Of a stretch of DNA of 64,000 nucleotides, positions 26,398 to 43,475 are shown in pieces (positions within the stretch are counted from its first letter, which is position 1; each line of letters opens with the position of its first letter). The notes beneath the pieces were generated by a model that was given only the letters and a program-made list of their open reading frames with translations, searched no databases and was not told where the DNA came from. The position numbers were made by a program, and so were the translations under genes. This stretch comes from Nonomuraea turkmeniaca. Lineage in GTDB: Bacteria > Actinomycetota > Actinomycetes > Streptosporangiales > Streptosporangiaceae. The stretch is taken from contig NZ_VCKY01000014.1 in the NCBI RefSeq assembly GCF_005889735.1, positions 1 through 64,000 on the forward strand, read 5' to 3'.

Positions 26398-26423
26398 TCG
26401 GAGCGAGCCCGTAGTCTTCCGCC

Positions 26424-27635: not shown

Positions 27636-27660
27636 CAGGTTCGAGGTCTACGTTCGGGAC

Positions 27661-28017
27661 ATGAGAGGACTCGTGCAGGTCGCCCAGCACGCCGACGACC
27701 TCGACAGGGCCACGGCTTTCTACCGCGAAGTGCTCGGCCTGCGGCACATCGCCACCTACCGGCCGCCTGGGCTGGCCTTCTTCGACCTTGACGGCGTACG
27801 CCTGCTGATCGAGAAGAGCGCGCACTCGGCGGTGCTCTACCTGGCCTCCGACGACCTCGAGGCGGATGTGGCCCGGCTGCGTGCCCACGACGTCGCGATC
27901 GTCGAGGAGCCGCATCTGATCTTCACCGACGACGGCACGTTCGACACGCCGGGCAGGGAGATCCGCATGGCCGCGTTCAAGGACTCCGAGGGCAACCTGC
28001 TCTGCCTCATGACCTGA
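27661..28017 (+). CDS. VOC-family (glyoxalase-like) protein
   Basis: A 118-residue single-module vicinal oxygen chelate protein. Its four-strand motif pattern runs QVAQHADDLDRATAFYREVLGLRHI, FFDLDGVRLLIE, and AAFKDSEGNLLCLM at the end. Metal-binding His near residue 9 and Glu in DSEGN fit the family. The substrate is unknown. It starts 25 bases after xseA, without a clear ribosome binding site, and may be read from the xseA transcript. Confidence 0.83.
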   Translation: MRGLVQVAQHADDLDRATAFYREVLGLRHIATYRPPGLAFFDLDGVRLLIEKSAHSAVLYLASDDLEADVARLRAHDVAIVEEPHLIFTDDGTFDTPGREIRMAAFKDSEGNLLCLMT

Positions 28018-28064
28018 GCCCCGCATGCGGCAGACGGCCGCGGCGGCGCTGTCGGGCGGGAGCC

Positions 28065-28667: not shown

Positions 28668-28687
28668 GGGTGGAGCATACAGGTTGT

Positions 28688-28735
28688 AACCGGAGGCTTC
28701 TCCGGTTAATCTCCAAACCGGAGAACTCTCCGAGT
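28688..28735. promoter_or_regulatory. Two tandem TetR-type operators
   Basis: AACCGGAG (28688-28695) and CTCCGGTT (28700-28707) form a perfect inverted repeat with a 4-base spacer. A second copy, AACCGGAG (28716-28723) and CTCCGAGT (28728-28735), repeats it 28 bases further on with two mismatches. The pair fills the 82-base region between the TetR gene and the reductase at 28750 and should bind two dimers. Confidence 0.65.
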
Positions 28736-28749
28736 CTGAGGAGCCGAGA

Positions 28750-29163
28750 ATGCCCAACGAGTTCAACCAGCAGATCATTGATGAGTTCCGGGCCAATGAA
28801 GGCCGGGTCGGCGGCATGTTCGAAGGCTCGCCACTGGTGCTGCTCACCACGACTGGAGCCAAGAGCGGCCGGGCGGTCACCACGCCGGTGATGTATCTCA
28901 TGGACGGCGAGCGCTACGTCGTCATCGCCTCCAACGCCGGGGCGGACAACCATCCCGCCTGGTACCACAATCTGCTGGCCACGCCCGAGGCCACCGTGGA
29001 GGTCGGCACCGAGACGTTCGAGGCCAAGGCGGCCTTCATCGAGGGTGAGGAGCGCGACCGGCTCTACGCCAGGATGGTGGCGCAGGCGCCGGGCTTCGCC
29101 GAGTACGAGGCCAAGACCAGCCGCCGCATCCCCGTGGTGGCCCTGCTGCCCCAGGCCGCCTGA
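28750..29163 (+). CDS. Deazaflavin (F420)-dependent nitroreductase-family protein
   Basis: A 137-residue split-barrel protein of the Ddn/nitroreductase family that uses F420. Typical parts are FNQQIIDEFRANEGRVGGMFEG, LVLLTTTGAKSGRAVTTPVMY, NAGADNHPAWYHNLLATPEATVEV (PAWYHNL is the signature) and the C-terminal FAEYEAKTSRRIPVVALLP. GAGGAGCC precedes the ATG. The substrate is unknown. Divergent from its probable TetR repressor. Confidence 0.9.
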   Translation: MPNEFNQQIIDEFRANEGRVGGMFEGSPLVLLTTTGAKSGRAVTTPVMYLMDGERYVVIASNAGADNHPAWYHNLLATPEATVEVGTETFEAKAAFIEGEERDRLYARMVAQAPGFAEYEAKTSRRIPVVALLPQAA

Positions 29164-29327
29164 ACGTCCCTCGCGTCAGGGCGCCCCAGGGGGTCGCGTC
29201 GTCGAGCGTGGCGTTCGCGGAGGGGCGCGTCGTCGAGCGTCGCGCGCTCGCGAGGCCGGGCCGTCGAGAGCGGCGCGCGCAAAGGGCGGGTCGTGCGCGG
29301 CGCGTGCCAGGGTGGGCCGGCGGCCGG

Positions 29328-29570
29328 TCAGAAAGGCGCGTCGTCGGCGCCTGAGGTGGGCTCGGAGCGGCGGGCCATCGCGGCGGCGAGCTTGACCCTG
29401 GCGCCCTGGAGCCACTCTTCGCAGACCGCCGCCAGCTTCTCCCCGCGCTCCCAGAGCTCGATCGACTGCTCCAGGGTGAGCCCGCCGGTCTCCAGGCGGC
29501 GCACCACCTCGGTCAACTCCTCGCGGGCCTGCTCGTATGAGGGCGCCTTCTCGTCTGCTGCCACGGTCAC
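29328..29570 (-). CDS. xseB: Exodeoxyribonuclease VII small subunit
   Basis: An 80-residue XseB. The core motif SYEQAREELTEVVRRLETGGLTLEQSIELWERGEKLA is diagnostic when read in its two helices. The tail carries RVKLAAAMA. The start is taken as GTG at 29570 (VTVAADEK); another GTG at 29564 is equally possible, with AGGGTGG upstream. Although its function depends on XseA, it is convergent with xseA and separated from it by three genes. Confidence 0.92.
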   Translation of the reverse strand: MTVAADEKAPSYEQAREELTEVVRRLETGGLTLEQSIELWERGEKLAAVCEEWLQGARVKLAAAMARRSEPTSGADDAPF

Positions 29571-29799
29571 CACCCTAGACGGGCCGGCCGACATCCGCCG
29601 CGCGGTGTTCAATCCACTCACTCCGAGTGTTCATTCGCTACGCTAAGTCGCCGTCGGTGGATGGCCGCGATCGCCTGCTACGGCGTCTGACTTCCAGGAG
29701 CGCTGTGATGTCTGATCCCGGGACAAATGATGCGTCAACCACTTTGGGCCCCTACGCGTCGAATCGTCACGGCGTTCACGCTGACTCGGGAGGCCCCTC

Positions 29800-30126
29800 A
29801 TGATCCGTCGCATCATCCGGAAACGACGCCCTGCGCCCACGCTGGCGGGCATCAGCCTGGAGGAGGAGCTCGCCCTGATCAGGGTCGAGCTCATGTACGG
29901 CCTGCGCGTCAACCGCGAGGCCTACCTCCGCAGGAAGGTGGACGAGCGCAACGAGATGACCAGCCGCATGCGGGAGAGCGACACCGCCGACATGCTGGCC
30001 GACCTGCGCGGCTCGCTCGAGCGGGCGGTACGCCCCACGGTGGTGGACCTCCAGAGCCGGACGACGGTCGTGGACCTGCAGAGCCGGCGGCAGACGCGGC
30101 CGACACAGGACCCGGAGCCCGCCTGA
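29800..30126 (+). CDS. Hypothetical small basic protein
   Basis: A 108-residue protein, rich in Arg and Glu and predicted helical (SLEEELALIRVELMYGLRVN, REAYLRRKVDERNEMTSRM). Near the C-terminus TVVDLQSR occurs twice in tandem with three residues between. GGGAGG stands six bases before the ATG at 29800. No family is recognised and no export signal or membrane helix is present. Confidence 0.68.
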   Translation: MIRRIIRKRRPAPTLAGISLEEELALIRVELMYGLRVNREAYLRRKVDERNEMTSRMRESDTADMLADLRGSLERAVRPTVVDLQSRTTVVDLQSRRQTRPTQDPEPA

Positions 30127-30454
30127 CGCACCCCTCCGCTCGCGCCCCATGCCGAATGCGCAAGGCGTGAGAGTCCATGCCTATTTTGGTCAGGAATCCA
30201 TGGCGGCCGCGCTAGGCGATATTAGGCGTTTTGCCTGGTCAAAAGCCGATTCAACCGGGAAGTGACAGGAATCGGCATCGGGGCCTGTCATCCTGCCCCG
30301 GTTTGCCGTGAGGGCGGTCATGCCTGCAGCATGGGCGTGGCTTTCCTGGAACAATGGCGGAGACCGGATAGGGTGACTACTTCACCGCGGATGATGGGGA
30401 TCGGCAACGGACGACACCGCGCCAGCCGGGGGGATCGGCGCGAGCGGAGGCGTG
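30127..30454. other. Leader region of the secretion-like operon, no gene seen
   Basis: These 328 bases have no convincing frame. They contain an inverted repeat TGACAGG (30263-30269) / CCTGTCA (30284-30290) with a 14-base spacer, and a relatively AT-rich part near 30180-30250. This is the likely promoter and 5' leader for the genes from 30455 on. No known riboswitch core was recognised by eye. Confidence 0.45.
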
Positions 30455-31471
30455 ATGGCTCGTAGGTCTACCGTCCAGCACGATCCTCGGATCGCTGACG
30501 GGCCTGGGCTTTCCGCAACCCTGGACACGGCTGACTTCGACGCGCCGCCACCACGCAGGCCGCGCCGTGGCGGCTGGTCCGGTAGCGGTGGGCGGTGGCT
30601 GGTGTGGACGGGCCGCATCATTCTCTGGGCGCTTATCGTGGTTATCGTGGTGAATGGGATCCGTGCCCCATTTGAGCGGTTTACCCAGCAAGAAGCGGTA
30701 ACGCCCAATGGTGTCGCGGTGGCGAACAATGGATTCCCGGTGGACCGGGGCATGGCTTTCGCTGCTCAGTTCGCCGGGGTCTATCTCAATTTCAGCCCCG
30801 AGGACGATGCCAGCAGGTCACGCAAGCTGGCGGCGTTCCTGCCCGACGCCTCGGACCCGCGCATGGGCTGGGACGGCGTGGGCAAGCTGGCGGCCGTCGC
30901 CATCCAGCCGTACGACATCGAGACGACCGACGCCCACAACGCGGTGGTCAGCGTGGCCTTCCAGTCCGGTCCGCGGAGGCTGATGTTGTCGGTGCCGATC
31001 TACTACTCCGGCGAGGACGAGGCCAAGAGGTTCGTCGTCTCCGGCCGCCCGGCCATCCTGCCCGCGCCCGCCCCGGCCGAGCTGCCCCAGGTGGCGCCGC
31101 CGGAGACCGACGACGCGGCCGCCGCCGAGCTCAAACCGCAATTGGAGGGCTTCTTCAAGGACTACGCGTCCGGCGACGCCGCCGGGCTGCAGCGCTACGT
31201 GGCCGCCGGCAAGACCCTGCCGAGCTTCGGCGGCGCCTTCACCTTCGCAGAGCTCAAGAAAGTCGTGGTGCCTGTGGGGGGTGCCACTCGAGAGATCCAG
31301 GCGGTCGTCGTGTGGGTCGTGCCGAACGGCGAGGCCCAGGCCACTCCCAACGCCACCGACCCGGCCGCGGTCGGCGCGCGTTTGGAGCAGGCCTACCGGC
31401 TTACCGTCGAGAAGCAGGGCGACAAGTGGTTCGTCGCCGACATCCGTGGCGCCGGCCGGGTCGTTGACTAA
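30455..31471 (+). CDS. TcpC-like conjugal transfer protein
   Basis: A 338-residue bitopic membrane protein. After a disordered, Pro/Arg-rich cytoplasmic start comes one helix (WTGRIILWALIVVIVVNGIRAP), then two NTF2-like domains as in TcpC of clostridial conjugative plasmids, the VirB8 analogue. The first domain begins FAAQFAGVYLNFSPED, and the second ELKPQLEGFFKDYASGD. The C-terminus reads QAYRLTVEKQGDKWFVADI. The ATG at 30455 has GGAGG four bases upstream; a GTG at 30452 is too close. It is the first gene of the secretion-like locus. Confidence 0.85.
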   Translation: MARRSTVQHDPRIADGPGLSATLDTADFDAPPPRRPRRGGWSGSGGRWLVWTGRIILWALIVVIVVNGIRAPFERFTQQEAVTPNGVAVANNGFPVDRGMAFAAQFAGVYLNFSPEDDASRSRKLAAFLPDASDPRMGWDGVGKLAAVAIQPYDIETTDAHNAVVSVAFQSGPRRLMLSVPIYYSGEDEAKRFVVSGRPAILPAPAPAELPQVAPPETDDAAAAELKPQLEGFFKDYASGDAAGLQRYVAAGKTLPSFGGAFTFAELKKVVVPVGGATREIQAVVVWVVPNGEAQATPNATDPAAVGARLEQAYRLTVEKQGDKWFVADIRGAGRVVD

Positions 31472-31516
31472 AGGCCCGGCCGCGCTGCCGATCGGTACCC
31501 CCCGGGAGGACGAGAA

Positions 31517-31798
31517 GTGACCTTGAAGACCGTAATGCTCACCTTGATCGAAATGTCGCCGACGCCCACGTCGACCGGCATCGACACCGGAGGGCTCGCC
31601 GACTTCCTGCGCGCGTTCTTCGCCCCGCTGTTCCTCGTCGTCGTCTCCGTGGTGGCGCTCTTCTTCCTCTTCACCCGCGAGATCACGCGATTCGTGCAAT
31701 TCCTGATCCTGGCCGTGGCCATCGGGGTGATCTTCTACGTTCCCAACATCATCGAGGTGACGGCGAAGGCAATCGCGGGCGCACTGGGCATCAGATAA
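31517..31798 (+). CDS. Small two-helix membrane protein (TcpD/VirB2-like position)
   Basis: A 93-residue protein with two hydrophobic helices (FFAPLFLVVVSVVALFFLF and FVQFLILAVAIGVIFYVP) separated by a short basic loop (TREITRF). Size, topology and position between TcpC- and TcpE-like genes match small conjugation membrane proteins such as TcpD or VirB2/B3 pilin-like subunits. No sequence motif proves it. GGAGGA stands before the GTG at 31517. Probably part of the transmembrane channel. Confidence 0.7.
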   Translation: MTLKTVMLTLIEMSPTPTSTGIDTGGLADFLRAFFAPLFLVVVSVVALFFLFTREITRFVQFLILAVAIGVIFYVPNIIEVTAKAIAGALGIR

Positions 31799-31856
31799 AG
31801 GGTTGGGATCGTCCAGCGGCGGTCATACACGAGCGGGTGGAGAGGAGGAGGACCGG

Positions 31857-34800
31857 GTGGACCTGCCCACGTATACGAACATCTGGCGGATCGAGAAGCG
31901 GCTCTACAAGCTGTACGACCTACGCCTGCCGATGCCGCTGCCGATCGTCTGGATCGGCGTCTTCGTCGGGGTGTTCATTCCGTGGTCCCTCCTGCTGATC
32001 CTGGTGGGCGTGCCGGTGGCGATGCCGTGGCACGTGCTGTTCCTGGTGCCGCCGGGGATCGTGACGTGGCTGTCGACCCGCCCCGTCATCGAGGGCAAGC
32101 GGCTCACCGAGCTGCTGGAGTCCCACCTGCGCTACCTGGGCGAGCCGAAGGCCTGGTACCGCCTCACGCCCATGGCCGAATCCGAGACGATCACCTTCTC
32201 CGCGCGCGTGTGGCGTACCGCCCCCGCGCGGGCCAAGTCCAAGCGGCCGAGCAAGAGCCGTCATCCGCAACGCAGGCGTCAGGACCAGCGGATCGCCGGG
32301 CCGCGCCAGGTGCGCCCCGCCGTCGCCGCCGCGGCCGCGGCGGCCGGCCACGCTCCGGTCGCCGAACCGGCTGCCACGCGCACCGGCTGGGGCGCCCGAC
32401 GCGGCGCCGCCGCACCCGCTCTCAAGGCTCAGGCCCCCGCCCCGGCACGGCACGATGAGGGGCTCTCCGGGGGGCGCGGACACCATGAGGACCTGCCGCT
32501 GGTCGTCGTGCCCGGGGAGGAAGCGCCCGGTATGACGTCGCCGCCGGTCGAGCGCGAGCCCGCGGACCGGAGAGAGAGTTCCAGGACGGCGGACCGGAGA
32601 GAGATTTCCAGGACGGACGACGCCAGGACGGGCGGCGCCTCGACGCGCGGTGGGACGGACGGCGCCTCGACGGATGGCGGTCGGAGGGCCGGCGGCAAGC
32701 GGGCTGGTGGCCGGCGACTGTCCGCCCGGGAGGCCGCAAGCCAACAGGCCGCGCTCCGCGAGGCCGCGCGCCGTGAGGCGGCCACTCGCGAAGCGGCGCT
32801 TCACGGCGCCTCGGGCCAAGAGGCCCCCGGCCGTGAGAACGCCGGCCGGGCGACTGGAGCTCCCGAGACCGGGGGGCATGTGGGCACGGGTCCGGAGGCG
32901 GCGGGCCGTCCGGGCATGGGTCCCCAGAGCGTGGCACATGCAGGCACGGCCCATGCGGACGCGGATCCCGAGACGGCAGGCCGCGCGGCCACAGGTCAGG
33001 AGTCCGCGGCTCGTGCGGCCACAGGTCAGGAGTCCGCGGCTCGTGCGGCCGCAGGTCAGGAGTCCGCGGCTCCTGCGGCCACAGGCCAGGAGCCAGCGGC
33101 CCGTGAGACCGGTGGCCGGGAGAGCGGGGCTCCGGAGGGTGGCGAGCGCACTGGCGATCACGCGGCGCCTGGCGAGGAGGAGGCCGCGCCTGGGGCGGTC
33201 GTGCCGATCAAGGCGGCGCAGAGCCGCAAGTCTGCCGCGGGCAAGCCGATCGACACCGAGGCTCTGCGGCGGCTGAGGAAGCTCGCGGCCAGCGCGGACG
33301 CGCCGGGCGATACGGCGACCGGTCGTAGGGAGACGGCGGGCCGGGTCGAGGGCGAGCGGCGCGAGGACGAGGTCGCGCGAGACCAGCACAGGAAGGGGCA
33401 GCCGCCCAGGCTGGGACCCGCGCTGGTGCTGTCGGGCACTCAACGGGTCTGGCCGCCGCTCGACCCGGACGCCAAGCCTTTGCCTCGGCCGGGCGTCTCC
33501 CGCCCCGACCATCAAGACTCCGACCACGTCGCCGGCGAGGAAGTCAGGGCCGCAGATGCGCCCAGCGGGTCGGCCGCGGTGGTCGACACGCCGTCCGAGG
33601 GTGCCGGTACGCACGGGCCGGACGCGATCGCCGATGCACCGGACGGCGCGACGACCGCGGAGGACGTGACGGCTCAGGAGTCCCACGACATCAGTGCCGT
33701 CGGAGAGCGGCCGACCGCGACGCAGGGCCCGGGCACGGGTGGTCGGGGTTCGTCGGAGACGACGCGGAGCCCGGGCACGGGTGGTCAGGGTTCGTCGGAC
33801 ACGACGCAGAGCCCGGACGCCGGCGGTCGGGGTTCGTCGGACGTGGAGCAGAGCCGGGGCGCGGCCGGTCGCCGTCGGACGGCTCCGGCGGAGGCGGGTG
33901 ACCGGCCCAGGCTGACGCCGGTCCCGCCGGACCGCATCATGACGGGCGAGGACACGACAAGCGACCGCGTGGCGTCGGCGCGCGGTGCGGCGGGCGGTCG
34001 CGAGTCGGTGGAGGCCGGTGAGCGGCCGAGGCCGGAGCCGGATTCCACCGGTCGGCCCGCACCGCCCACACACGACCGACCTGCGGCGGTGCGGCACGAC
34101 CGGCCCGCAGCGCCCACACACGACCGGCCTGCAGCGGTGCGGCACGACCGGCCCGCAGCGCCCACACACGACCGACCCGCAGCACCCACGCACGACCGAC
34201 CAGCAGCGCCCACGCACGATCGGCCGCCGGCGGCGGACCCGGTCGGTGACCGGGGCGGGACGGTTGGTGGGCTGGTGGGGCCGGTGCCGGTGCCCAGGCC
34301 TGGTGAGGCGCGGGTGCGCAGGGTCGAGTCCGTGATCGGGCGGGACTCCGGCGGCTGGCGGCGGATCGCTCAGGTGGTCGTCGGTGGCACCAACGTACGG
34401 TCCGACGGGTCCGAGATCGACGAGGCCAGGGCCAGGGCCGTGTTCAGCGGCAGCCGCAGGATCGTGGTCCTGGGCTGCACCGGCGGCGCCGGGCAGAGCA
34501 CCACGGCTCTCATGCTCGGCCACACCTTCGCCACCTACCGCGACGACAGGGTCGTGGCCGTCGACGCCAACACCGGCGGCACCACCCTGACCAGCAAGAT
34601 CCAACCAGAAACCCCGGAAACTCTCACTTCGCTGCTGTCCGGGCTCGACCGGGTCAGCGGCTATCTCACCATGCGCGGATACACCACACGGACGGCCTCC
34701 GGGCTGGAGGTGATCAGCGCGGACACCGACGCGGGCGCCGAGCAGCGTCTGGCGGACCGGTCCTTCTTCTCCGACCACCGGCTGGGCGAGTCCATGCGCC

Positions 34801-35267
34801 TGCTGGACCGTCACTACAAGCTGGCCGTGATCGATCCGGCCGCCGCGCTGGCGGCCCGGCTCCTGCCGTACGCGGACCAGCTCGTCCTGGTGGTTCCGGC
34901 GAGCGAGGAGGCGTCGGAGGCGGTGGCGATGACGTACGAGTGGCTCGACGGGCACGGCTGCGCGGAGCTGCGCAGACGGGCGGTGATGGTGGTCAACGGC
35001 GTGAGCAGGCGTTCGATGACCGACGTCGAGCAGGCGGAGTCGGTGGCCAGGGGCAGATGCCGGGCCATCGTCAGGGTCCCCTGGGAAGACGATCTGGCGC
35101 CAGGTGGGGCCGAGATCGTCGATCCCGGGCAGTTGCGCGCGGCCGGGCGGCGGGCCTATCTCGCCCTCGCCGGTGTTGTGGTCGCGGGCTTCGCGGCACA
35201 GACCGTACGACCGAGCGAAGAGGAGTTGGCGAGTGACCCCCCGGGCACGAGAATCGGTGAGCGTTAA
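31857..35267 (+). CDS. TcpE-like domain fused through a disordered linker to a MinD/ParA-like ATPase domain
   Basis: A 1136-residue fusion. Residues 1-125 resemble TcpE: LPTYTNIWRIEKRLYKLYDL then two helices (LPIVWIGVFVGVFIPWSLLL and HVLFLVPPGIVTWL). About 680 residues of Ala/Gly/Arg/Glu-rich disorder with three tandem-repeat arrays follow. From about residue 830 a MinD/ParA-like domain starts. Its P-loop reads GCTGGAGQSTTA, so the expected Walker A lysine is Gln880; other core parts (VVAVDANTGG, YKLAVIDPAAALAARLL, ADQLVLVVPASEEASEAV) are kept. The start is the GTG at 31857 after GGAGGAGG. It lies between the small membrane protein and the VirB4-like gene. Nucleotide binding is doubtful; a structural or regulatory role is possible. 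Confidence 0.8.
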   Translation: MDLPTYTNIWRIEKRLYKLYDLRLPMPLPIVWIGVFVGVFIPWSLLLILVGVPVAMPWHVLFLVPPGIVTWLSTRPVIEGKRLTELLESHLRYLGEPKAWYRLTPMAESETITFSARVWRTAPARAKSKRPSKSRHPQRRRQDQRIAGPRQVRPAVAAAAAAAGHAPVAEPAATRTGWGARRGAAAPALKAQAPAPARHDEGLSGGRGHHEDLPLVVVPGEEAPGMTSPPVEREPADRRESSRTADRREISRTDDARTGGASTRGGTDGASTDGGRRAGGKRAGGRRLSAREAASQQAALREAARREAATREAALHGASGQEAPGRENAGRATGAPETGGHVGTGPEAAGRPGMGPQSVAHAGTAHADADPETAGRAATGQESAARAATGQESAARAAAGQESAAPAATGQEPAARETGGRESGAPEGGERTGDHAAPGEEEAAPGAVVPIKAAQSRKSAAGKPIDTEALRRLRKLAASADAPGDTATGRRETAGRVEGERREDEVARDQHRKGQPPRLGPALVLSGTQRVWPPLDPDAKPLPRPGVSRPDHQDSDHVAGEEVRAADAPSGSAAVVDTPSEGAGTHGPDAIADAPDGATTAEDVTAQESHDISAVGERPTATQGPGTGGRGSSETTRSPGTGGQGSSDTTQSPDAGGRGSSDVEQSRGAAGRRRTAPAEAGDRPRLTPVPPDRIMTGEDTTSDRVASARGAAGGRESVEAGERPRPEPDSTGRPAPPTHDRPAAVRHDRPAAPTHDRPAAVRHDRPAAPTHDRPAAPTHDRPAAPTHDRPPAADPVGDRGGTVGGLVGPVPVPRPGEARVRRVESVIGRDSGGWRRIAQVVVGGTNVRSDGSEIDEARARAVFSGSRRIVVLGCTGGAGQSTTALMLGHTFATYRDDRVVAVDANTGGTTLTSKIQPETPETLTSLLSGLDRVSGYLTMRGYTTRTASGLEVISADTDAGAEQRLADRSFFSDHRLGESMRLLDRHYKLAVIDPAAALAARLLPYADQLVLVVPASEEASEAVAMTYEWLDGHGCAELRRRAVMVVNGVSRRSMTDVEQAESVARGRCRAIVRVPWEDDLAPGGAEIVDPGQLRAAGRRAYLALAGVVVAGFAAQTVRPSEEELASDPPGTRIGER
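32985..33104 (+). repeat. Four 30-base in-frame tandem repeats
   Basis: Units at 32985, 33015, 33045 and 33075 begin GCGGCCACAGGTCAGGAGTC or close variants. They encode a ten-residue unit of the type RAATGQESAA inside the disordered linker of the TcpE-MinD fusion. The first two copies are identical. Confidence 0.9.
33729..33854 (+). repeat. Three 42-base in-frame repeats
   Basis: Three diverged units encode PGTGGRGSSETTRS, PGTGGQGSSDTTQS and PDAGGRGSSDVEQS in the disordered linker of the TcpE-MinD fusion. Confidence 0.8.
34074..34217 (+). repeat. Six 24-base in-frame tandem repeats
   Basis: Six octapeptide units of the type DRPAAPTH or DRPAAVRH follow each other directly before the ATPase-like domain of the fusion protein. 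The first four alternate the two forms, suggesting duplication of a 48-base unit. Confidence 0.9.
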
Positions 35268-35314
35268 GTGAAAAGGCGAGCAGGCATGGCCCGTTCATGC
35301 GCCGAGGGGGCGGC

Positions 35315-37792
35315 ATGACCAGGGCGTCCCGAGCGCACCAGCGCCTCGCGGTCCGCTACTTCGACGACCGCATCCTGCTCACAGACACCTGTGCATGGGC
35401 GTACTTCCGCCTCCCGACGGTCAGCTACGAGTTCGTCACGCCCGAGGAGCGTGAGGCGCTGGCCACCAACATCACGATCGCGCTGGCCGCGATCAGGATG
35501 CCCGACGCAGAGGTCCACCTGAGGGTCGTGCACCGCACGTACCCTGCCGCGGAGTGGGCCATGGCGCTCAATGCCACGTCCGATGAGGGGCCTGGCTGGC
35601 GCGACTACCTGGAGGAGATGTACCGGCACGTCTGGGCCAAGGACTTCTGGACGAAGGAGGTCTATCTCGGCGTGCGGTTGGGCCCGCGGGGCAAACAACT
35701 CGGCAGCGGTGTGCTGGCCCAGCTCTTCGGCTTCTACCAGAAGACCGAGAAGGCGCTCGGCATGGAGGACGGCCACGTACCCGACAGCGAGATAGGGCGG
35801 TGGACCGAACAGGCCGAACGCCTGGGCCGAGCGCTCGCATCGAGCGCTCTGTACGCTCGGCACGCCACCTCCGTCGAGGTGGCGTGGTTGTTCCAGCACG
35901 CGGCCGCGGGCGCGCTCGGCGACCCGCCGCCGTCGGCCAGCCCGCGGCGGCGCTGGGGCAGGGGCGAGATCGAGTCGCTGGTCGAGGGCGAGATCCACAA
36001 CGGCAGGTCGCTGCTGCGGATCGTGCAACCGCAGGGCGACTCGTACGTGGCCTACCTGTCGTTCGCCCGCTTCCCCGATCTGATGCCGTTCCCTGACGGC
36101 GAGCCGTGGCTGCACTTCGCCGACCAGCTGCCGTTCCCGGTGGAGGTCTCGTCGCGGATGCGGCTGATCCCGCCGGTCAAGGCGTCGAAGGACGTGGCGC
36201 GCAAGCTGGCGCACGCCCGCGACATGGACCACCACATCCGCGAGGCCGGCGCGGAGGCGCCGCTGGCGCTGGCCGAGCAGATCGACGCGGCCCGCATGCT
36301 GGAGCACGGCATCACGAAGGAGCGGCTGCCCTTCGTGTACGGCTGGCACCGCCTCATCGTGGCGGCCCCGACCGAGGAGATCTGTGTGCAGCGGGTCGAG
36401 GCGGTCGTCGAGCACTACCGCGACATGGGCATCGACGTGGTCAACTCGACCGGCGACCAGTTCTCGCTGTTCTGCGAGGGGCTGCCGGGCGAGAAGGTGC
36501 GCGTCAACGCCTACGCCCAGCGCCAGCCGCTGCGCACGATCGCGGGCGGCATGGCCACGGCGACCGTGGATCTCGGCGACCGGCTGGACGAGGGCAGCGA
36601 GGGCTGGCTGGGCCCGTACATCGGCGAGACCGTCGGCCGCGCCCGCAGCATCGTGCATTTCGACCCGCTGGTGGCGGCCACCCGCAACCGGCCGACCGCC
36701 ATCGCGATCACCGGCGAGCCGGGCGGCGGCAAGACCACGCTCGCCCTGCTGATGATCTATCAGATGGCGTTGCGCGGCGTGACGGTCGCGGTGATCGACC
36801 CGAAGGGCGACGCCGAGTCCCTGGTGAAGCTGCTGGAAAAGCGGGGCCGCAAGGCCAGGATCATCCCGCTCGGCTCGGCGGCGCCCGGCCTGCTCGACCC
36901 GTTCTCGTTCGGCGACGACATCGCGGCGAAGAAGACCATGGCCACGGAGACGCTGCGCCTGCTGCTGCCGCGGATGTCGGAGGAGCGCGAGTCGGCGATG
37001 ATCCAGGCGGTGGCCGCGGTCTCCAACCAGCCCGACCCGTCGCTCGGCAAGGTCGTGGACCACCTGGAGCAGGCCGACGACCCGGCCTCGAAGAACCTTG
37101 GCGCGGTGTTGCGCTCGATGTCGGAGATGCACCTGGCCAGGCTCTGCTTCGACCCCTCCGGCGGCGACCAGATCGACACCGAGGGGTGGACGACCGTGTT
37201 CACGCTGGGCGGGCTGACGCTGCCCGACGTGGCGACGGGCAGGGAGGACTACTCCTACGAGCAGCGACTGTCGGTCGCCCTGCTCTACCTGGTGTCCCAG
37301 TTCGCCCGCCGGCTCATGAACGGCCTCGACCGGCGTGCCCCGAAGGCGATCTTCCTGGACGAGGCGTGGGCGATCACCTCCACGCCCGAGGGGGCCAAGC
37401 TGGTGCCCGAGGTCAGCAGGATGGGCCGCTCCCGCAACACCGCGCTCGTGCTGGTCTCGCAGAACGCGGGAGACCTGCTGAACGAGCAGGTGACCAACTG
37501 CCTGTCGTCCGTCTTCGCGTTCCGGTCCACCGAACGGGTGGAGGTGGACCACGTCATGTCCCTGCTCGGGGTGGAGTCTTCGGAAGAGCACAAGGCCGCG
37601 CTGCGCTCGCTCGGAAACGGCGAATGCGTATTCCGTGATCTGGATGGCAGGGCGGGCCGGATCGGAGTAGACCTGATCTCCGAGGAACTTCACCGTTGGC
37701 TCGACACGAACCCGACGCACGACAAACCCGACGGCAGCGGGCATGATGATCTTCAAGGGGGCGTGGGCAGGGCGCAGGAGGTACGGTCATGA
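35315..37792 (+). CDS. VirB4-like type IV secretion ATPase
   Basis: An 825-residue ATPase of the VirB4/TraC/TcpF group, expected at the inner face of the channel. Walker A is TGEPGGGKTT (Lys473) and Walker B is KAIFLDEAW (Asp682-Glu683). VSRMGRSRNTALVLVSQNAGDLL corresponds to the conserved motif C region of the family. The N-terminal 300 residues have the SCO6880-like/VirB4 N-domain pattern with RYFDDRILLTDTCAWAYFRLP. The ATG at 35315 has GAGGGGG five bases upstream and is preferred over that at 35297. It overlaps the next gene by ATGA, so translation is coupled. Confidence 0.9.
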   Translation: MTRASRAHQRLAVRYFDDRILLTDTCAWAYFRLPTVSYEFVTPEEREALATNITIALAAIRMPDAEVHLRVVHRTYPAAEWAMALNATSDEGPGWRDYLEEMYRHVWAKDFWTKEVYLGVRLGPRGKQLGSGVLAQLFGFYQKTEKALGMEDGHVPDSEIGRWTEQAERLGRALASSALYARHATSVEVAWLFQHAAAGALGDPPPSASPRRRWGRGEIESLVEGEIHNGRSLLRIVQPQGDSYVAYLSFARFPDLMPFPDGEPWLHFADQLPFPVEVSSRMRLIPPVKASKDVARKLAHARDMDHHIREAGAEAPLALAEQIDAARMLEHGITKERLPFVYGWHRLIVAAPTEEICVQRVEAVVEHYRDMGIDVVNSTGDQFSLFCEGLPGEKVRVNAYAQRQPLRTIAGGMATATVDLGDRLDEGSEGWLGPYIGETVGRARSIVHFDPLVAATRNRPTAIAITGEPGGGKTTLALLMIYQMALRGVTVAVIDPKGDAESLVKLLEKRGRKARIIPLGSAAPGLLDPFSFGDDIAAKKTMATETLRLLLPRMSEERESAMIQAVAAVSNQPDPSLGKVVDHLEQADDPASKNLGAVLRSMSEMHLARLCFDPSGGDQIDTEGWTTVFTLGGLTLPDVATGREDYSYEQRLSVALLYLVSQFARRLMNGLDRRAPKAIFLDEAWAITSTPEGAKLVPEVSRMGRSRNTALVLVSQNAGDLLNEQVTNCLSSVFAFRSTERVEVDHVMSLLGVESSEEHKAALRSLGNGECVFRDLDGRAGRIGVDLISEELHRWLDTNPTHDKPDGSGHDDLQGGVGRAQEVRS

Positions 37793-40059
37793 AGATCCGG
37801 CTATCCCGACGAGTCGCGTTGGTTCTTGCGCTGATCACCGGCATCCTCGTGGTGCCGCTGGTCATCGGAGGCGTTTCGGTTCCGGCCGCCGCGGCGCCGT
37901 GTGACCTCTCGGGTCCGCTCACCCCCGAGGTGGTGGGCGGCGGCACCGACGGCCTGATCCAGGCGCCGATCCCGCCGACCGGGGCCCCGACCACCAACTA
38001 CGCGCAGTTCGGCATGAGCGGCCAGTTCTGGCACACGCACGAGCTGGGCTGCTCCGAATACGTCGCCGTGCTCGGCAACATGTGGGCCAACGGCATCTTC
38101 ACCGCGGCCAAGGCCATCGACCGGCTGACGATCACGACGTACCAGGCGGCGGCGACCGAAGGACCGCTCCAGGCCATCAAGGACGTCGTCGACGACATCG
38201 TCACGAGGCTCGCCGACGCCATGTACTGGGACTTCCTCCAGCCGGTCGTGATCCTCGGCGCGATCTGGCTGGCCTGGTACGGCCTGATCCGCAAGCGTGC
38301 CACCACCACCGCCGAAGGCGTGATCTGGATGGTGCTGGCGGTCACCGTGGCGGTCTGGTTCTTCAGCCGTCCCGGCGACTTCACCGGCATGGGCAAGATC
38401 GTCACCGACAAGACCGGCGAGGTCGTCAACTCGGCCTTCTCCGGCCTGCCCGGCGCGGGCGGCGCCTCCTGCCTGCCTCCGCCCGGCGCCACCACTCCGG
38501 AGGTCAGGGCGGGCGGGTACGGCCAGACCGGCACGCCGGGCATCGACCAGAACGCCGACGCGCTGTGGTCGACGCTCGTCTGCAAGCCGTGGCTGGTGGG
38601 CCTGTTCGGCACCGCCGACCCGCAGCAGCCCATCGTGCGTGACTGGGGCCGCAAGGTGCTGGAGATGCAGTCGATCCCGCCTGCCGTGGCCGGCCAGCCG
38701 GCCCCCGACGTGGGGGCCCGCCAGCAGGAGTACTCCGCGCTGGCCGACAAGCTCAGGAACGACCCCCGCTACACGGTCTTCTCCGGCCGCGACTGGTCCA
38801 ACAGGCTCGGCGTGGCGGTCGGCGCGTTCATCGCCGCCATCGTGGCCGGGCTGCTCATCTTCCTGGTGGCGGTCTCGCTGCTGGTGCTGAAGGTCGGCTT
38901 CCTGCTGCTGCTGATCCTGGGACCGATATTCCTGCTGATCGGCGTGCATCCGGGCAGCGGCCGCATCGTCGCCATGCGCTGGGTGGAGATGCTCATCGGC
39001 ACACTGCTCAGACAGGCCGTGCTGACGATCGTGCTCAGTGTGCTCGTGTACGGGTACGCCCTGATCATCTCCACGGCCATGCCATGGGGCATGCAGGTGT
39101 TGTTCATGGCCCTGCTGACGATCGCGGTGTTCTTCTACCGGCGCCCGTTCCAGCACCTGTTCGCCTCGATCAACGGCCACACGGTCGCCACCCGCATGCT
39201 CGGCGAAGCCGCGAGCTCGCCCGTGCTGGAGCGGTCGGCGGGCGTGCTGCCGCCGGTCGCGTCGGCCAGGATCGGCCGCTGGGGGCTGCGTAAGGCCGAG
39301 CCCCTCATCAGGGCGGCGACCGCGGCCAACCCGGGCGGGGCGGCGGCCACGACGGCCGCGGCGGCAGGACAGGCCCGGATGCGCGCCGAGGAAGGCGAAG
39401 GCGCCACCTCCGGCACCAGGATCCCGGCCACGGCGGCCCCGCTCGACACCGACCACCAGGGCGGCAAGGCGGGCGGCCGGGCGGCGACGGAGCCGCGCAG
39501 GGGCACTGCGCCGCCGCTCAACCTGGGAGGTGCGGCCCGTACCCGCGGTCCCGCCGCCGGTGGGCCCCGCCTGGGCGGCACGGGCGGCCCACGGGTGGGC
39601 GGCACCTCGTCGAACGGCAGCTCGGCGAACGGCGTCTCCTCGAACGGTGGCGCGTCGGGCGGCGGCTCGTCGTCGGGCGGCGGCTGGTTCGGCGGCCGGT
39701 CGGGCGGCGGCTGGGCGTCACGAGGCGGCTCGACCGGCGGCTCGCGTACCGGCTCCACGCGTGGGTCGAGGTTCAGCGGCTCGGGTGGCTCGCGTTCGGG
39801 CGGCACGCCCTCCCGGGGCTCGGGCGGCGGCGGCCTGTTCGGCGGTGGCTCGAGCGGCGGCGGATCCCGTTCCGGCGGGGCCAGGCCGAGCGGCGGCGCC
39901 CCCAGGTCGGGCGGACCCCGCATCTTCGGCGGCTCCGACGAGCCGGCCCCGCGCGCGTCCGAGGCGCCGCCGCTGTGGCTGCGCAGCAGCCGTAACGGCG
40001 GCTCCAGCGACCCGTCCGTGCCCTTCTGGCTCAAACCGAACAACCCGGACAAGGACTGA
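37789..40059 (+). CDS. VirB6/TrbL-like polytopic channel protein with Gly/Ser-rich tail
   Basis: A 756-residue protein with an N-terminal signal-like helix (VALVLALITGILVVPLVIGG), a Cys-containing extracytoplasmic part, and at least six membrane helices in residues 140-460, including AVGAFIAAIVAGLLIFLVAV and LVLKVGFLLLLILGPIFLLIG. These match VirB6/TrbL/TcpH-type channel proteins. The last 280 residues are disordered and Gly/Ser/Arg-rich. The ATG overlaps the VirB4-like stop by four bases. Confidence 0.82.
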   Translation: MKIRLSRRVALVLALITGILVVPLVIGGVSVPAAAAPCDLSGPLTPEVVGGGTDGLIQAPIPPTGAPTTNYAQFGMSGQFWHTHELGCSEYVAVLGNMWANGIFTAAKAIDRLTITTYQAAATEGPLQAIKDVVDDIVTRLADAMYWDFLQPVVILGAIWLAWYGLIRKRATTTAEGVIWMVLAVTVAVWFFSRPGDFTGMGKIVTDKTGEVVNSAFSGLPGAGGASCLPPPGATTPEVRAGGYGQTGTPGIDQNADALWSTLVCKPWLVGLFGTADPQQPIVRDWGRKVLEMQSIPPAVAGQPAPDVGARQQEYSALADKLRNDPRYTVFSGRDWSNRLGVAVGAFIAAIVAGLLIFLVAVSLLVLKVGFLLLLILGPIFLLIGVHPGSGRIVAMRWVEMLIGTLLRQAVLTIVLSVLVYGYALIISTAMPWGMQVLFMALLTIAVFFYRRPFQHLFASINGHTVATRMLGEAASSPVLERSAGVLPPVASARIGRWGLRKAEPLIRAATAANPGGAAATTAAAAGQARMRAEEGEGATSGTRIPATAAPLDTDHQGGKAGGRAATEPRRGTAPPLNLGGAARTRGPAAGGPRLGGTGGPRVGGTSSNGSSANGVSSNGGASGGGSSSGGGWFGGRSGGGWASRGGSTGGSRTGSTRGSRFSGSGGSRSGGTPSRGSGGGGLFGGGSSGGGSRSGGARPSGGAPRSGGPRIFGGSDEPAPRASEAPPLWLRSSRNGGSSDPSVPFWLKPNNPDKD

Positions 40060-40061
40060 AC

Positions 40062-40682
40062 ATGGCGCAGCCAGGTGACAGGCGAGGGCTGGCCTTCGCC
40101 GCCATCGTCGTGGTCATCGCCGCGGTCGGCGTCTACCTCACGTGGGCGGACAACGCGGACCCGGCCCGGCCCGCGCCCCAGGCCACCCGCGCCACCAGCG
40201 TGGCCGTGGCGTCCAGCACGCCGCTCGCGACCGCGAGCACCGCGCCGTTCGACGTCTACACCTACCTGCCGATGAAGAAGGAGCAACTCGCCGCGGCGGC
40301 GGACGTGGCCGAGCGGTTCACCTCCACGTACGGCACGTTCAGGTACGACGAGAATCCGGCCGCGTACGCCGACCGGATCAAGGCGTACACCACCCCTGAG
40401 CTCGCCACCGCCCTGACCCGCACGATCACCTCGGCGGGCACCATCGAGCAGAACCGCAACGACGAGATCGTCTCCACGGCCACGGCCAGGCTCAAGGAGA
40501 TCAGGCAGATCGAGAAGAACTCCATCGTCTTCGTCGTCGTCGGGACCAGACAGGTCGCCGCGAAGAGCGGCGGCAAGCAGCTCACCGAGGAGTACGCGGT
40601 CACGGTCAGCCAGTCGGGCACCGACTGGCTGATCTTCGACATCATGCCGGCCGCCGAGGGCCAGTTCGGGGACGAAGGGTGA
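40062..40682 (+). CDS. Bitopic TcpC/VirB8-like small secretion protein
   Basis: A 206-residue protein with one N-terminal helix (LAFAAIVVVIAAVGVYLTWA), a Thr/Ser/Pro linker and an NTF2-like soluble domain (AAAADVAERFTSTYGTFRYDEN at its start, EYAVTVSQSGTDWLIFDIMPA at its end). The layout is that of a shortened TcpC/VirB8 protein. Two bases separate it from the previous stop, and its own stop overlaps the next start (GTGA). It is a likely stator or assembly part. Confidence 0.75.
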   Translation: MAQPGDRRGLAFAAIVVVIAAVGVYLTWADNADPARPAPQATRATSVAVASSTPLATASTAPFDVYTYLPMKKEQLAAAADVAERFTSTYGTFRYDENPAAYADRIKAYTTPELATALTRTITSAGTIEQNRNDEIVSTATARLKEIRQIEKNSIVFVVVGTRQVAAKSGGKQLTEEYAVTVSQSGTDWLIFDIMPAAEGQFGDEG

Positions 40683-41773
40683 ACGTCTCGCGAACGCGCC
40701 TCGCCCTGCTGATCGGCCTGGCAGGGGTGCTGCTGCTGGTGCTGGTCGTGGTGTCGCCGATGGTGCTGATCTCGATGCCGTCGTTCCTCAGCGAGGGCCG
40801 CACCTCCATCGACTGTGCGGACACCGCGCAGGTTCAAGAGGCCTCCGACTCGGCCACCGCCGACATTCCCGCCGAGTACCTGGAGCTGTACAAGGAGCAC
40901 GGCGAGAAGATCGGCGTCCAGTGGAACATCCTGGCCGCCGTGGGCAAACGCGAGACCGACCACGGCCGCTCCAAGCTGCCCGGAGTCAGGAGCGGCACCA
41001 ACTACGCGGGCGCGGCCGGGCCGATGCAGTTCCTGATCTCCACCTGGGGCGGCAAGGCCAGGGTCCCGGTGTCGTCGACGTTCAACGGGTACGCCTCCGA
41101 CGGTGATGGTGACGGCATCGGTGACGTGTACAACCCGGCCGATGCGATCCTCGGCGCCGCGAAGATGCTCAAGCGCAACGGGGCGCCCGAGAACGTGCGG
41201 CAGGCGCTGTTCGTCTACAACCGCGCCTGGTGGTACGTGGACCAGGTCGAGGAGATCGCCAGGAAGTACGCCAGGTCCGGGGACGTGAAGGTGCCGCCGC
41301 AGGCCGAGGAGGAGTGCGACGACTCGCTGGTCGAGGCCGCGCCGAGCGACGTCGTGGCCAAGATCATGGAGTTCGCGCTGGCGCAGCGCGGCAAGCCGTA
41401 CCTGTGGGGTGGCACCGGACCCGACGCGTTCGACTGCTCGGGCGTCATCTTCGCGGCCTACCGGTCGGCGGGGTTGACGATCCCGCGGACGACGTTCCTG
41501 CAGTGGCCGTTCGGGGTGAAGGTGTTAGCGGGTCAGGAGCAGCCGGGCGACCTGGTGTTCTTCAACGCCGGGCCGGGCACGTCGGCCGACAGCCCCGGAC
41601 ACGTCGGGCTGGTGGTGTCGAAGGGCAAGATGCTCGAGGCCCGGTGCCGGCTGTGCGGGCCGATCAAGGTCACCAGCTACGAGGCCCGCGGCAACCGCGT
41701 CGGCTTCACTCGTCCCCTGCAGAACCCTGACGTGCTCGAGCAGCTGAAGAAGCTGCAGAATCCTGCCCGATGA
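40679..41773 (+). CDS. Bifunctional lytic transglycosylase and NlpC/P60 peptidase
   Basis: A 364-residue cell-wall hydrolase. A signal anchor (LALLIGLAGVLLLVLVVVSP) is followed by a lytic transglycosylase domain (WNILAAVGKRETDHGRSKL with catalytic Glu92, GAAGPMQFLISTWG) and a C-terminal NlpC/P60 domain (YLWGGTGPDAFDCSG with Cys253, SPGHVGLVVSKG with His308). Together they cut both glycan strands and peptide links. VirB1-type hydrolases open the wall for type IV secretion channels, which fits its place at the end of the locus. The GTG start at 40679 overlaps the upstream stop. Confidence 0.92.
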   Translation: MNVSRTRLALLIGLAGVLLLVLVVVSPMVLISMPSFLSEGRTSIDCADTAQVQEASDSATADIPAEYLELYKEHGEKIGVQWNILAAVGKRETDHGRSKLPGVRSGTNYAGAAGPMQFLISTWGGKARVPVSSTFNGYASDGDGDGIGDVYNPADAILGAAKMLKRNGAPENVRQALFVYNRAWWYVDQVEEIARKYARSGDVKVPPQAEEECDDSLVEAAPSDVVAKIMEFALAQRGKPYLWGGTGPDAFDCSGVIFAAYRSAGLTIPRTTFLQWPFGVKVLAGQEQPGDLVFFNAGPGTSADSPGHVGLVVSKGKMLEARCRLCGPIKVTSYEARGNRVGFTRPLQNPDVLEQLKKLQNPAR

Positions 41774-41786: not shown

Positions 41787-42185
41787 ATGAGCAAAGTCGT
41801 GGTGGTCGTGGCGGCGGTGATCGTCGCCGAGGGCGGCCGGGTGCTGGCCGCCCAGCGTGCGGCGCCGGTGGCGGTCGCGGGTGGCTGGGAGTTCCCCGGC
41901 GGCAAGGTGGACCCGGGGGAGAGCGAGGTCGAGGCGCTGATCCGGGAGTGCCGCGAGGAGCTCGGGGTCGAGATCGCGGTGGGCGAGCGGGTGGGCGGTG
42001 ACTGGCCGCTGTCCGAGGGGTACGTGCTGCGGGTCTGGCTGGCCTCGATCGCCGAGGGGACGCCGGAGCCCAGGGAGCATCTGGCGCTGCGGTGGCTGGG
42101 GCCCGGGGAGTATTTCGACGTGGACTGGCTCGGGGCGGATTTGCCGATCATGAAGACCGTCGAGAGCCTGATCCCGCCCGACTGA
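41787..42185 (+). CDS. Nudix hydrolase, MutT-like
   Basis: A 132-residue Nudix protein, probably 8-oxo-dGTP diphosphatase or a related nucleotide-sanitising pyrophosphatase. The Nudix box is GGKVDPGESEVEALIRECREE followed by LGVE, matching GX5EX7REUXEEXGU. WEFPGGK and the C-terminal REHLALRWLGPGEYFDVDW fit the MutT group. It starts 13 bases after the hydrolase gene, so it may be read from the same transcript, although nothing ties it to secretion. Confidence 0.92.
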   Translation: MSKVVVVVAAVIVAEGGRVLAAQRAAPVAVAGGWEFPGGKVDPGESEVEALIRECREELGVEIAVGERVGGDWPLSEGYVLRVWLASIAEGTPEPREHLALRWLGPGEYFDVDWLGADLPIMKTVESLIPPD

Positions 42186-42227: not shown

Positions 42228-42260
42228 CGGGTGATCTGTCGCAGCGGGGGAGTGGGAGTG

Positions 42261-43430
42261 ATGCGTCGTGGCTGGATCCTTGCCGGTGTGGTGATCCTGG
42301 CGGCGGTGCCTTCCGTGCCTTTGGCCGCGACCGGCGTGTCGCTGGTGGTGGAGCGGGTGAGCCGGGACGCCGGCGATGCGGGGAAGTGGGTCAGGACCGG
42401 GGACGTGCAGCGGTTCAGGGTGCGGTTGAACGGGATGGCCAGGGGGGCCAGCGTGGCGGTGGCCGCCAGCCCGGTGGAACTCGCCGACCCCAGCCTGCCG
42501 GCTGGCGGGCGGGCATCCGACGGGGCCGGCACGCAGACGGACCGGACCCCCGCGCTCGACGTGCAGGTGAGCCGGACCCCCGGGTCCGACGTGCAGGTGG
42601 GCGGGACGGCCGAGAGCGACGTGCAGGTGAGCCGGACCCCCGGATTCGACGTGCAGGTGAGCCGGACGGCCGGAAGCGACGTGCGGGTGAGCCCGACGGC
42701 CGGGGACGTGGCCGGCCGGGGCGAGACGGATGCGGCTGGCGGGAGCAGGTGGGAGTTCTCCGGACCGGCGACGAAGCGCCGCTCCGCGAAGGGGAGGGCA
42801 CACGATCCGAAGCTGACTTTGCCCCAAGCCACACCGCGGCAGACCGTCCACAGCGCGTCCGCGCAACCGTCTCCCCGCACGTCGGTTCGGGCCGTTCCCG
42901 GCACGTCGGTTCGGGCCGTTCCCCGGGCGTCGGCTCGGGTCGTTCCTCGGACGTCGGCTCGGGTCGTTCCTCGTGCGTCGGTTCGGGCCGTTCCCGGCAC
43001 GTCGGCTCAGGCCGTTCCCGGCACGTCCGAGCTGGCGTTCCCCACCGCGTCCGTGCAGACGCTCCCCACCGCGTCCGCTCGAGTCGTCGTCAGCCCGCCC
43101 GAGCAGACCCTTCCCGATGTCTCTCTCCAGGACCTCGAGGGCGTGCCCACGATCGCCGCCTCGCCCGCGCCCGGCATCATCCCGTCCCCCCAGATCGCCG
43201 CACCCCCGGGAGCCGAGACCGCGCCGGGCGTCGAGACCGCGCCGGGAGTCGCGCCCCTGCCGTGGGAAATCGCCGCCGCCACGAAGCGGACCCAGCCGAC
43301 CGGACCAGTCAATCCGTTGAAGGGTCCCATGGGCCATGCGATGGCGATCGGCGGCATCGGGGCGCTGCTAGGGGCCTTGTGGCTCATTGTCACGGTACAA
43401 AGGCATCGGAAGCGTAGAATGGTGTTGTAA
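42261..43430 (+). CDS. Repeat-rich exported membrane-anchored protein
   Basis: A 389-residue protein with a signal sequence (RRGWILAGVVILAAVPSVPLAATG), a long low-complexity outside region and a C-terminal anchor (AMAIGGIGALLGALWLIVTV) followed by HRKRRMVL. The outside region holds five ten-residue units (DVQVSRTPGS type) and eight octapeptide units (TSVRAVPG type). No family is recognised. The topology suggests a surface-exposed stalk. The ATG at 42261 follows GGGAGTG. It lies between the secretion-like locus and a second protein with similar topology. Confidence 0.75.
   Translation: MRRGWILAGVVILAAVPSVPLAATGVSLVVERVSRDAGDAGKWVRTGDVQRFRVRLNGMARGASVAVAASPVELADPSLPAGGRASDGAGTQTDRTPALDVQVSRTPGSDVQVGGTAESDVQVSRTPGFDVQVSRTAGSDVRVSPTAGDVAGRGETDAAGGSRWEFSGPATKRRSAKGRAHDPKLTLPQATPRQTVHSASAQPSPRTSVRAVPGTSVRAVPRASARVVPRTSARVVPRASVRAVPGTSAQAVPGTSELAFPTASVQTLPTASARVVVSPPEQTLPDVSLQDLEGVPTIAASPAPGIIPSPQIAAPPGAETAPGVETAPGVAPLPWEIAAATKRTQPTGPVNPLKGPMGHAMAIGGIGALLGALWLIVTVQRHRKRRMVL
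42558..42707 (+). repeat. Five 30-base in-frame tandem repeats
   Basis: The units begin at 42558, 42588, 42618, 42648 and 42678 with GACGTGCAGGTGAGCCGGAC or variants, encoding DVQVSRTPGS-type decapeptides. Confidence 0.9.
42879..43070 (+). repeat. Eight 24-base in-frame tandem repeats
   Basis: Octapeptide units TSVRAVPG, TSVRAVPR, ASARVVPR and variants follow each other without gaps in the same gene. The first six are close copies; the last two are more diverged. Confidence 0.9.
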
Positions 43431-43475
43431 TCCGGTCTTTACTGTTACTTTGACCCGACTAGTATTCCCTTGACC

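Follow-up and report, generated by a model that had tools for sequence, protein, structure and literature searches.

A Tcp-type secretion channel locus with a fused MinD-like domain, kept across a family of Streptosporangiales

The closest described relatives of the locus studied here are the Gram-positive conjugation systems of the pCW3 Tcp operon and of Tn916-type (MPF_FA) elements, which have TcpC, TcpE, TcpF (VirB4), VirB6- and VirB1-type proteins in common with it; in Tcp-type systems the VirB3-like TcpD and TcpE genes sit upstream of virB4, according to PMC12857230. The same paper describes VirB4-driven channels without VirD4, namely Bordetella Ptl, Brucella VirB and Helicobacter pylori ComB, which are Gram-negative and have known protein or DNA cargo. 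As exceptions so far it names the type IV secretion system (T4SS) of the Streptococcus suis 2 89K island, a Gram-positive system reported to secrete a protein, yet island-borne and equipped with VirD4, and the chromosomal T4SSs of Patescibacteria. The latter are monoderm systems, widespread in their lineage, mostly relaxase-free and thought to be co-opted, with VirB4 nested in MPF_FATA, VirB2-like pilins, an epibiotic host lifestyle and, in most genomes, genes for VirD4-type coupling proteins (T4CPs) mostly far from virB4 (PMC12102498). Among monoderm T4SSs that are common in a lineage yet seldom accompanied by a relaxase, they come closest to the present locus, from which they differ in VirB4 clade, in pilins and in those VirD4-type genes. 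Here we analyse a tcp locus in a 64,000-nucleotide stretch of Nonomuraea turkmeniaca (contig NZ_VCKY01000014.1; G000:C55:1-64000, hereafter the window), taken from an 11.35-Mb draft genome of 592 contigs.

Seven plus-strand open reading frames (ORFs) span 30452 (or, from the ATG, 30455) to 41773 with intergenic gaps of -4 to 45 bp (Table 1), confirming the tight run of seven genes with short gaps and four-base overlaps described in an earlier note on this DNA. Families were assigned through Pfam and NCBIfam profile searches of the seven proteins, in which the Pfam matches that name them pass their cut-offs. Three NCBIfam matches fall short of the family cut-offs: TcpF against VirB4 (250.8 bits, cut-off 1100), CD3337/EF1877 (NF046089) against the TcpH/VirB6-like protein (81.5 bits, cut-off 120) and TcpD against the small protein, a weak match at 15.3 bits (cut-off 100). 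A TcpD profile built from the locus proteins matches the gene in the TcpD position of a Bacillus plasmid at 2e-11. A phmmer search of TcpC against solved structures gave chance-looking matches only.

The short second VirB8-like protein is only weakly TcpC-like in sequence (E 0.0093) and was assigned by fold. Its AlphaFold2 model, computed from 36 orthologues, has a predicted local distance difference test score (pLDDT) of 79.8, mostly above 90 in the soluble domain. In a Foldseek comparison with solved structures the first 16 rows are all VirB8-type (CagV, PrgL, DotI/IcmL, TraM, 3ub1), the best being CagV, PrgL and IcmL/DotI with TM-scores of approximately 0.4-0.5 by query length, and VIA-align gives a Z of 12.8 to both DotI and 3ub1. 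The identities proposed in the earlier note are upheld, with TcpC, TcpE, VirB4, VirB6/TrbL and the hydrolase recognised by Pfam, and the short VirB8 and the MinD part by predicted fold.

By its gene families and one predicted fold, the locus is that of a Gram-positive (Tcp/Tn916, MPF_FA-like) T4SS channel. It comprises a VirB4 with an intact P-loop, VirB3 (TcpE), VirB6 and VirB8 proteins, and a VirB1-type hydrolase. The Walker A motif GEPGGGKT and the FLDEAW motif of VirB4 are intact in 104/104 loci of the family, and the NlpC/P60 cysteine and histidine and the SLT glutamate of the hydrolase are kept in all 92 aligned rows. Compared with pCW3/Tn916-type systems, the window locus is chromosomal and fixed, no linked TcpA or relaxase was found, its TcpE is fused to a MinD-like pseudo-ATPase, and it holds an extra short VirB8.

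Table 1 Features of the tcp locus and its immediate surroundings in the window
Feature	Position	Strand	Evidence and remarks
Promoter-like pair CTGGAA-17-TAGGGT (putative)	30346..30374	+	about 80 bp before the tcpC ATG
TcpC (VirB8-like)	30452..31471	+	start GTG 30452 or ATG 30455; PF12642 E 7.6e-17, residues 103-328
TcpD-like small protein, hydrophobic by eye	31517..31798	+	NCBIfam TcpD E 0.017; sits between tcpC and tcpE
TcpE-MinD fusion	31803..35267	+	TcpE (VirB3-like, residues 23-120): PF12648 E 1.9e-20
MinD-like pseudo-ATPase domain, degenerate Walker A	34413..35264	+	AAA_31 E 0.0011 (below cut-off); predicted fold
VirB4/TcpF ATPase	35297..37792	+	PF12846 (AAA_10) E 1.4e-67; NCBIfam TcpF E 2.2e-74
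TcpH/VirB6-like, long Gly/Ser-rich tail	37789..40059	+	PF04610 (TrbL/VirB6) E 3.9e-8; NF046089 (CD3337/EF1877) E 5.3e-23
Second, single-domain VirB8-like protein	40062..40682	+	fold comparison of AlphaFold2 model
TcpG/VirB1-like wall hydrolase, lytic transglycosylase + NlpC/P60	40679..41773	+	PF13406 (SLT_2) E 5.4e-6; PF00877 (NLPC_P60) E 5.7e-19
NUDIX gene	41787..42185	+	PF00293 E 5.3e-18; 13-bp gap after tcpG

VirB4 was detected in all 36 genomes of the genus (the window's own counted), in 247 of the family's 250 genomes, the three misses being only 67-74% complete, and in 219/219 family genomes that are ≥90% complete and ≤5% contaminated. The 41 family genomes listed share no less than 78% identity with the window copy, and across 104 aligned loci this identity has a minimum of 0.784 and a median of 0.898. 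One genome from another family of the same order (G233) carries a VirB4 that is 82% identical. Further out, a class search of 394 genomes gave 12 additional genomes at E 1e-30, with VirB4 27-33% identical, and a phylum search matched 30 of 198 genomes (the window's included) at E 1e-3, some of them through short weak pieces, at up to 40% identity. The 104 family loci that were read (80 named and 24 others) include 81 that span the whole operon, and in 81/81 all eight modules lie on one strand in one order, as judged with module profiles built from the same loci that were counted. On 54 rows the mean identity of VirB4 is 0.902, against 0.919 for SdhB, and the distances computed for six genes of the locus and for the adjacent NUDIX gene track those of SdhB (Mantel r 0.62-0.70, with 0/999 permutations as high). 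Because the locus is near-universal, syntenic, conserved at an SdhB-like level and diverging in step with SdhB, the pattern looks like vertical inheritance under strong constraint; the synteny comparison proposed in the earlier note thus revealed a distribution that is not the patchy one of a conjugative element or integrative and conjugative element (ICE).

The genes that would make such a channel conjugative were searched for around the locus and in the genome. The window's contig yielded no match to FtsK_SpoIIIE (17 matches on other contigs) or to Phage_integrase, the tyrosine type (36 elsewhere), serine recombinases and att repeats not having been searched, and the 64-kb window holds no tRNA. 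TraG-D_C, the VirD4 C-terminal domain, has no match anywhere in the genome; the same is true of TrwC, Relaxase and Rep_trans in a search that left aside Replic_Relax (the Bacillus plasmid type) and other MOB classes. The only other AAA_10 match in the genome is weak and falls inside an FtsK. Taken with the near-universal, syntenic distribution, these results support the fixed chromosomal machine, as opposed to a conjugative element, that had been proposed, and the genome search for VirD4-type and relaxase genes came out negative as far as the draft extends. The accompanying statement that no relaxase, coupling or integrase gene lies nearby stands for the tested families on the contig, although unlinked FtsK-domain ORFs exist on other contigs. 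With no DNA-handling genes alongside it, the channel probably moves something else or acts on the cell wall.

The feature that sets the locus apart from its relatives is the second half of the TcpE protein, in which a low-complexity linker of approximately 750 residues joins TcpE to a domain with MinD/ParA fold (residues 871-1154). The AlphaFold2 model of this domain (pLDDT 88.5) has the ParA/MinD fold, with structure matches including 3ea0, FlhG, McdA, Soj and BcsQ. Many of these matches are spatial regulators, which suggests that the domain may have a role in localisation. The Walker-A stretch reads CxGGAGQ[ST] in 104/104 chromosomal copies, so that neither the signature nor the P-loop lysine of a deviant Walker A is left; in the window protein the Walker-A lysine position is glutamine (codon 34494-34496), and this Q28 is invariant in 36/36 aligned sequences. 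Stand-alone MinD relatives, in comparison, read KGGVGKTT in all four that were inspected (two from Nocardiopsis plasmids, two from genomes of another class), and a fifth possible one is found at locus L170. Of the 88 loci in which both ends could be located, 86 encode TcpE and MinD as a single ORF. Since both Walker-A lysines are lost, the MinD module is probably a tethered part that no longer cycles ATP, and because the motifs of the transport motor (VirB4) and of the wall cutter are kept while those lysines are gone, it appears to be MinD specifically that has been turned into a tethered, probably non-cycling part. The fusion represents a concrete trace of domestication, intact and stand-alone in plasmid-borne or patchy relatives, fused and catalytically stripped in the fixed version.

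Based on these data we favour, with modest confidence, a stripped and domesticated conjugation channel with a MinD-fold pseudo-ATPase, used for non-DNA cargo or for envelope remodelling. A complete monoderm T4SS channel of the Tcp/Tn916, MPF_FA-like type would have shed its relaxase and coupling ATPase module, and the stripped channel would already have been a domesticated chromosomal locus when the family began to diversify. In the proposed arrangement VirB4 at the membrane powers a translocon of TcpD/TcpE and TcpH, TcpC and the second VirB8 may extend the channel into the wall, and the SLT and NlpC/P60 enzyme would open the peptidoglycan. The MinD domain on its long flexible linker would probably be a stationary module for docking or localisation, holding the complex at a site or binding a partner. 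The job would then be to carry non-DNA cargo, such as proteins, across the envelope, or to remodel the envelope locally, at defined hyphal sites; of the functions considered, non-DNA export or envelope remodelling is the one we find likeliest. A more specific version, to which we give slightly less than even weight, is that of a family-wide T4SS that has abandoned DNA transport and works free of a coupling protein, with the pseudo-ATPase in VirB3 positioning the complex or docking the substrate, i.e. a dedicated monoderm translocator of non-DNA cargo. As far as our literature search could tell, the conjugation-type channel itself is known, and the family-wide fixation, the lack of a linked coupling protein or relaxase and the fused pseudo-MinD are new; no paper on the locus was among the literature matches listed, in a search that most subscription journals fell outside. 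A conserved, near-universal channel without linked transfer genes in a genetically tractable species makes the question directly testable, and genetic tools are reportedly available for Nonomuraea gerenzanensis.

Plasmid relatives give an indication of the possible starting point. The 27-kb B. subtilis plasmid NZ_CP154917.1 has the gene order C-D-E-B4-(x)-H-C2-G, which is common to both operons save for x, a small gene that the plasmid carries after virB4; profile matches range from 1e-104 (VirB4) to 1e-3 (TcpH). It differs from the window locus in that a DUF87 ATPase, probably the coupling protein, and a replication-relaxation protein lie upstream, separated from tcpC by a single small gene, and in that no MinD profile match was obtained in the plasmid stretch that was read. 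Judged from the genes, the chromosomal locus looks like such a plasmid operon minus its upstream DNA-transfer module, and the arrangement of NZ_CP154917.1 is possibly the ancestral layout. A phmmer search with the DUF87 ATPase and relaxase of this plasmid against the family loci found nothing, in a comparison too insensitive to count, as no VirB4 was matched either.

Three Nocardiopsis plasmid records (NZ_CP099838.1, L206; NZ_CP080600.1, L207; and NZ_CP074136.1) carry a VirB4 71-76% identical to the window's. In the first two, the ones examined, all modules were found, although plasmid-borne and rearranged relative to the window locus, with TcpE unfused and a separate MinD that retains KGGVGKTT. 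Measured against 19 chromosomal copies, the plasmid TcpD, TcpE and VirB4 are nearest to one chromosomal branch (up to 0.85, 0.67 and 0.80 identity, respectively), whereas the hydrolase does not exceed 0.29 and MinD does not exceed 0.38, both under the lowest values among the chromosomal copies (0.40 and 0.49, respectively). Values for TcpH (up to 0.36) and the second VirB8 (up to 0.30) are likewise low, yet overlap those of the chromosomal copies. On these identities the plasmid tcp clusters look like mosaics. In a VirB4 tree of 46 rows (36 of 105 chromosomal) the Nocardiopsis plasmids fall inside the family near loci L188 and L189; support for this placement is modest (89/81, 83/99), the outgroup branches are very long and the bootstrap is unsettled. 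Scanning ten proteins of the two plasmids recovered four tcp/MinD parts, the other six giving no relaxase or coupling match. The fixed chromosomal machine proposed in the earlier note holds as fixation in the family, although the lineage is not purely chromosomal, given the related modules on these plasmids. A further record from the plasmid collection, NZ_LT559118.1 (L208) of Nonomuraea gerenzanensis, holds all eight modules; this 11.85-Mb record is labelled 'plasmid I' and, judged by its size, looks like the chromosome.

Several findings weigh against a stripped channel for non-DNA cargo or remodelling. In a sample of 24 genomes, chosen and not random (the window's own and 23 single-contig genomes), TraG-D_C occurs in 14 and Relaxase in 9. 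FtsK-domain proteins are present in 10/10 genomes checked, and as such ORFs lie on other contigs of the window genome an unlinked coupling protein is possible; T4CPs are often encoded far from virB4, as stated in PMC12102498. Closely related C-D-E-B4 genes reside on the Nocardiopsis plasmids, replicons that might be mobile. NZ_CP154917.1 and the two Nocardiopsis plasmids examined are typed as non-mobilizable by MOB-suite, so that a use in conjugation is only presumed for these relatives, too. Finally, TcpD is a tentative name, derived from weak similarity and position.

The most serious rival, which we nonetheless consider unlikely, is that the locus is still a DNA-export channel, acting as a resident helper that mobilises plasmids, actinomycete integrative and conjugative elements or chromosomal DNA while other loci provide the coupling protein and the relaxase in trans. 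This would be permitted by the FtsK-domain proteins encoded elsewhere and by the VirD4- and relaxase-type proteins that some genomes also have, and the module related to that of the Nocardiopsis plasmids as well as the gene order equal to that of a plasmid operon are in line with it. However, TraG-D_C, TrwC and Relaxase are jointly absent from 9 of the 24 sampled genomes (G000, G207, G230, G350, G282, G290, G335, G389 and G456), TrwC occurs in 1 of the 24 and Rep_trans in none, which also speaks for the stripped channel. In G290, a single contig of 4.2 Mb, two of the five FtsK-domain matches fall in one FHA/EccC-like protein of 1615 aa; the other three lie, going by the translations, in an FtsK-sized ORF, a HerA-like ORF (below cut-off) and a TraB-like ORF with an integrase approximately 4 kb away. 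Steady retention at SdhB-like conservation would, moreover, be surprising if the locus did no more than help other elements.

A machine of the envelope or cell wall, active for instance in hyphal septa or during sporulation, which builds a trans-wall structure without specific secretion, strikes us as improbable. The hydrolase, present in all spanning loci and with its catalytic residues kept in all aligned rows, the MinD-fold domain and the lack of a linked coupling ATPase fit such a machine. On the other hand, the invariant ATPase motifs of VirB4 and the retained translocon go beyond the needs of wall cutting, and the spaced pattern of a WhiG-type sporulation promoter, a candidate prompted by GCCGATTC near the window's tcpC and rejected, was present in 0/82 upstream regions. 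DNA import, as in the coupling-protein-less ComB of H. pylori, follows the same composition logic of VirB4 without VirD4 (precedent in PMC12857230) and is very unlikely, as no competence family was seen in the 30 flanking ORFs scanned, ComEC not having been searched genome-wide, and no pilin family among the seven locus proteins. An inactive, decaying ICE remnant would explain the lacking transfer-initiation genes and a likely origin from a conjugation-type operon, but it is contradicted by retention in nearly every genome, the intact order, the SdhB-like conservation of VirB4 and the intact motifs of VirB4 and hydrolase, and we regard it as next to impossible.

Beyond the family, 5 of 149 genomes in the class to which genome G100 belongs (G100 included) have a clear relative, i.e. 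a patchy distribution. An integrase lies approximately 10-11 kb from virB4 in three of the five (G877, G165, G938), and none is present on the virB4 contigs of G100 and G849; mobility of these relatives is only suggested. Selected ORFs of five of the 26 outside loci were scanned, and no relaxase or coupling family was found among the selected neighbours of four of them (L162, L200, L202, L165). The C-D-B4-H-G clusters of L162 (G100) and L200 (G877) end in a separate MinD, followed by a protein of 860-870 aa. At G938:C31:140643-143106 the virB4 relative lies in two pieces in different frames and is apparently broken, with integrases approximately 10-11 kb away on both sides. L175, a distant relative in the window's own class, has an FtsK/SpoIIIE-EccC-like gene nearby. 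Within the family, L188 and L189 (one genus, g211) contain insertions of approximately 1-5 kb on both sides of virB4, after the TcpE-MinD gene and before tcpH. The inserted genes were considered as a clue to cargo and rejected: ten ORFs scanned, one of which holds virB4, gave GmrSD_C, DUF6891 and a weak LtrA, and the two loci disagree.

Among 30 flanking ORFs of the window, those with matches are ordinary chromosomal genes, including ispH, xseA, an F420 reductase, NUDIX, glpX, fumarase, YchF and a fumarate reductase/succinate dehydrogenase flavoprotein, and xseB and sdhBA, identified from their translations, adjoin the locus. The housekeeping neighbours that had been pointed out (xseB, sdh) are accordingly present in the window, but conservation is uneven: xse genes were found in 1/80 named loci, and sdhB in 56/80, some of which are cut short, and in 3/18 deeper loci. 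In the window (24352-29621) ispH is encoded on the minus strand close to xseA/xseB, as it is in L062; the other named loci with a recognised ispH have it on the plus strand with no xse found nearby, which points to an inversion or rearrangement of this region in the window's lineage. The NUDIX gene accompanies tcpG in 70/70 named loci that hold tcpG and in 15/18 deeper loci, and overlaps it by 4 bp in 21/85 loci; it is possibly co-transcribed with the operon, and is not a channel part. Upstream of tcpC, the pattern CTGGAA-N16-18-TANNNT recurs in 72/83 orthologous upstream regions (window included), which are related and not independent, against 0.0 per 83 base-shuffled regions, and the window's CTGGAA-17-TAGGGT pair, which lies in a conserved upstream block, may act as a promoter. 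A conserved 108-aa ORF without NCBIfam match lies just upstream of tcpC (29800-30126) in 26/80 named loci, mostly Nonomuraea. Two low-complexity genes without NCBIfam match are located between the NUDIX gene and sdhB, at 42231-43430 and 43470-44750, with relatives in 28/80 and 65/80 named loci, respectively.

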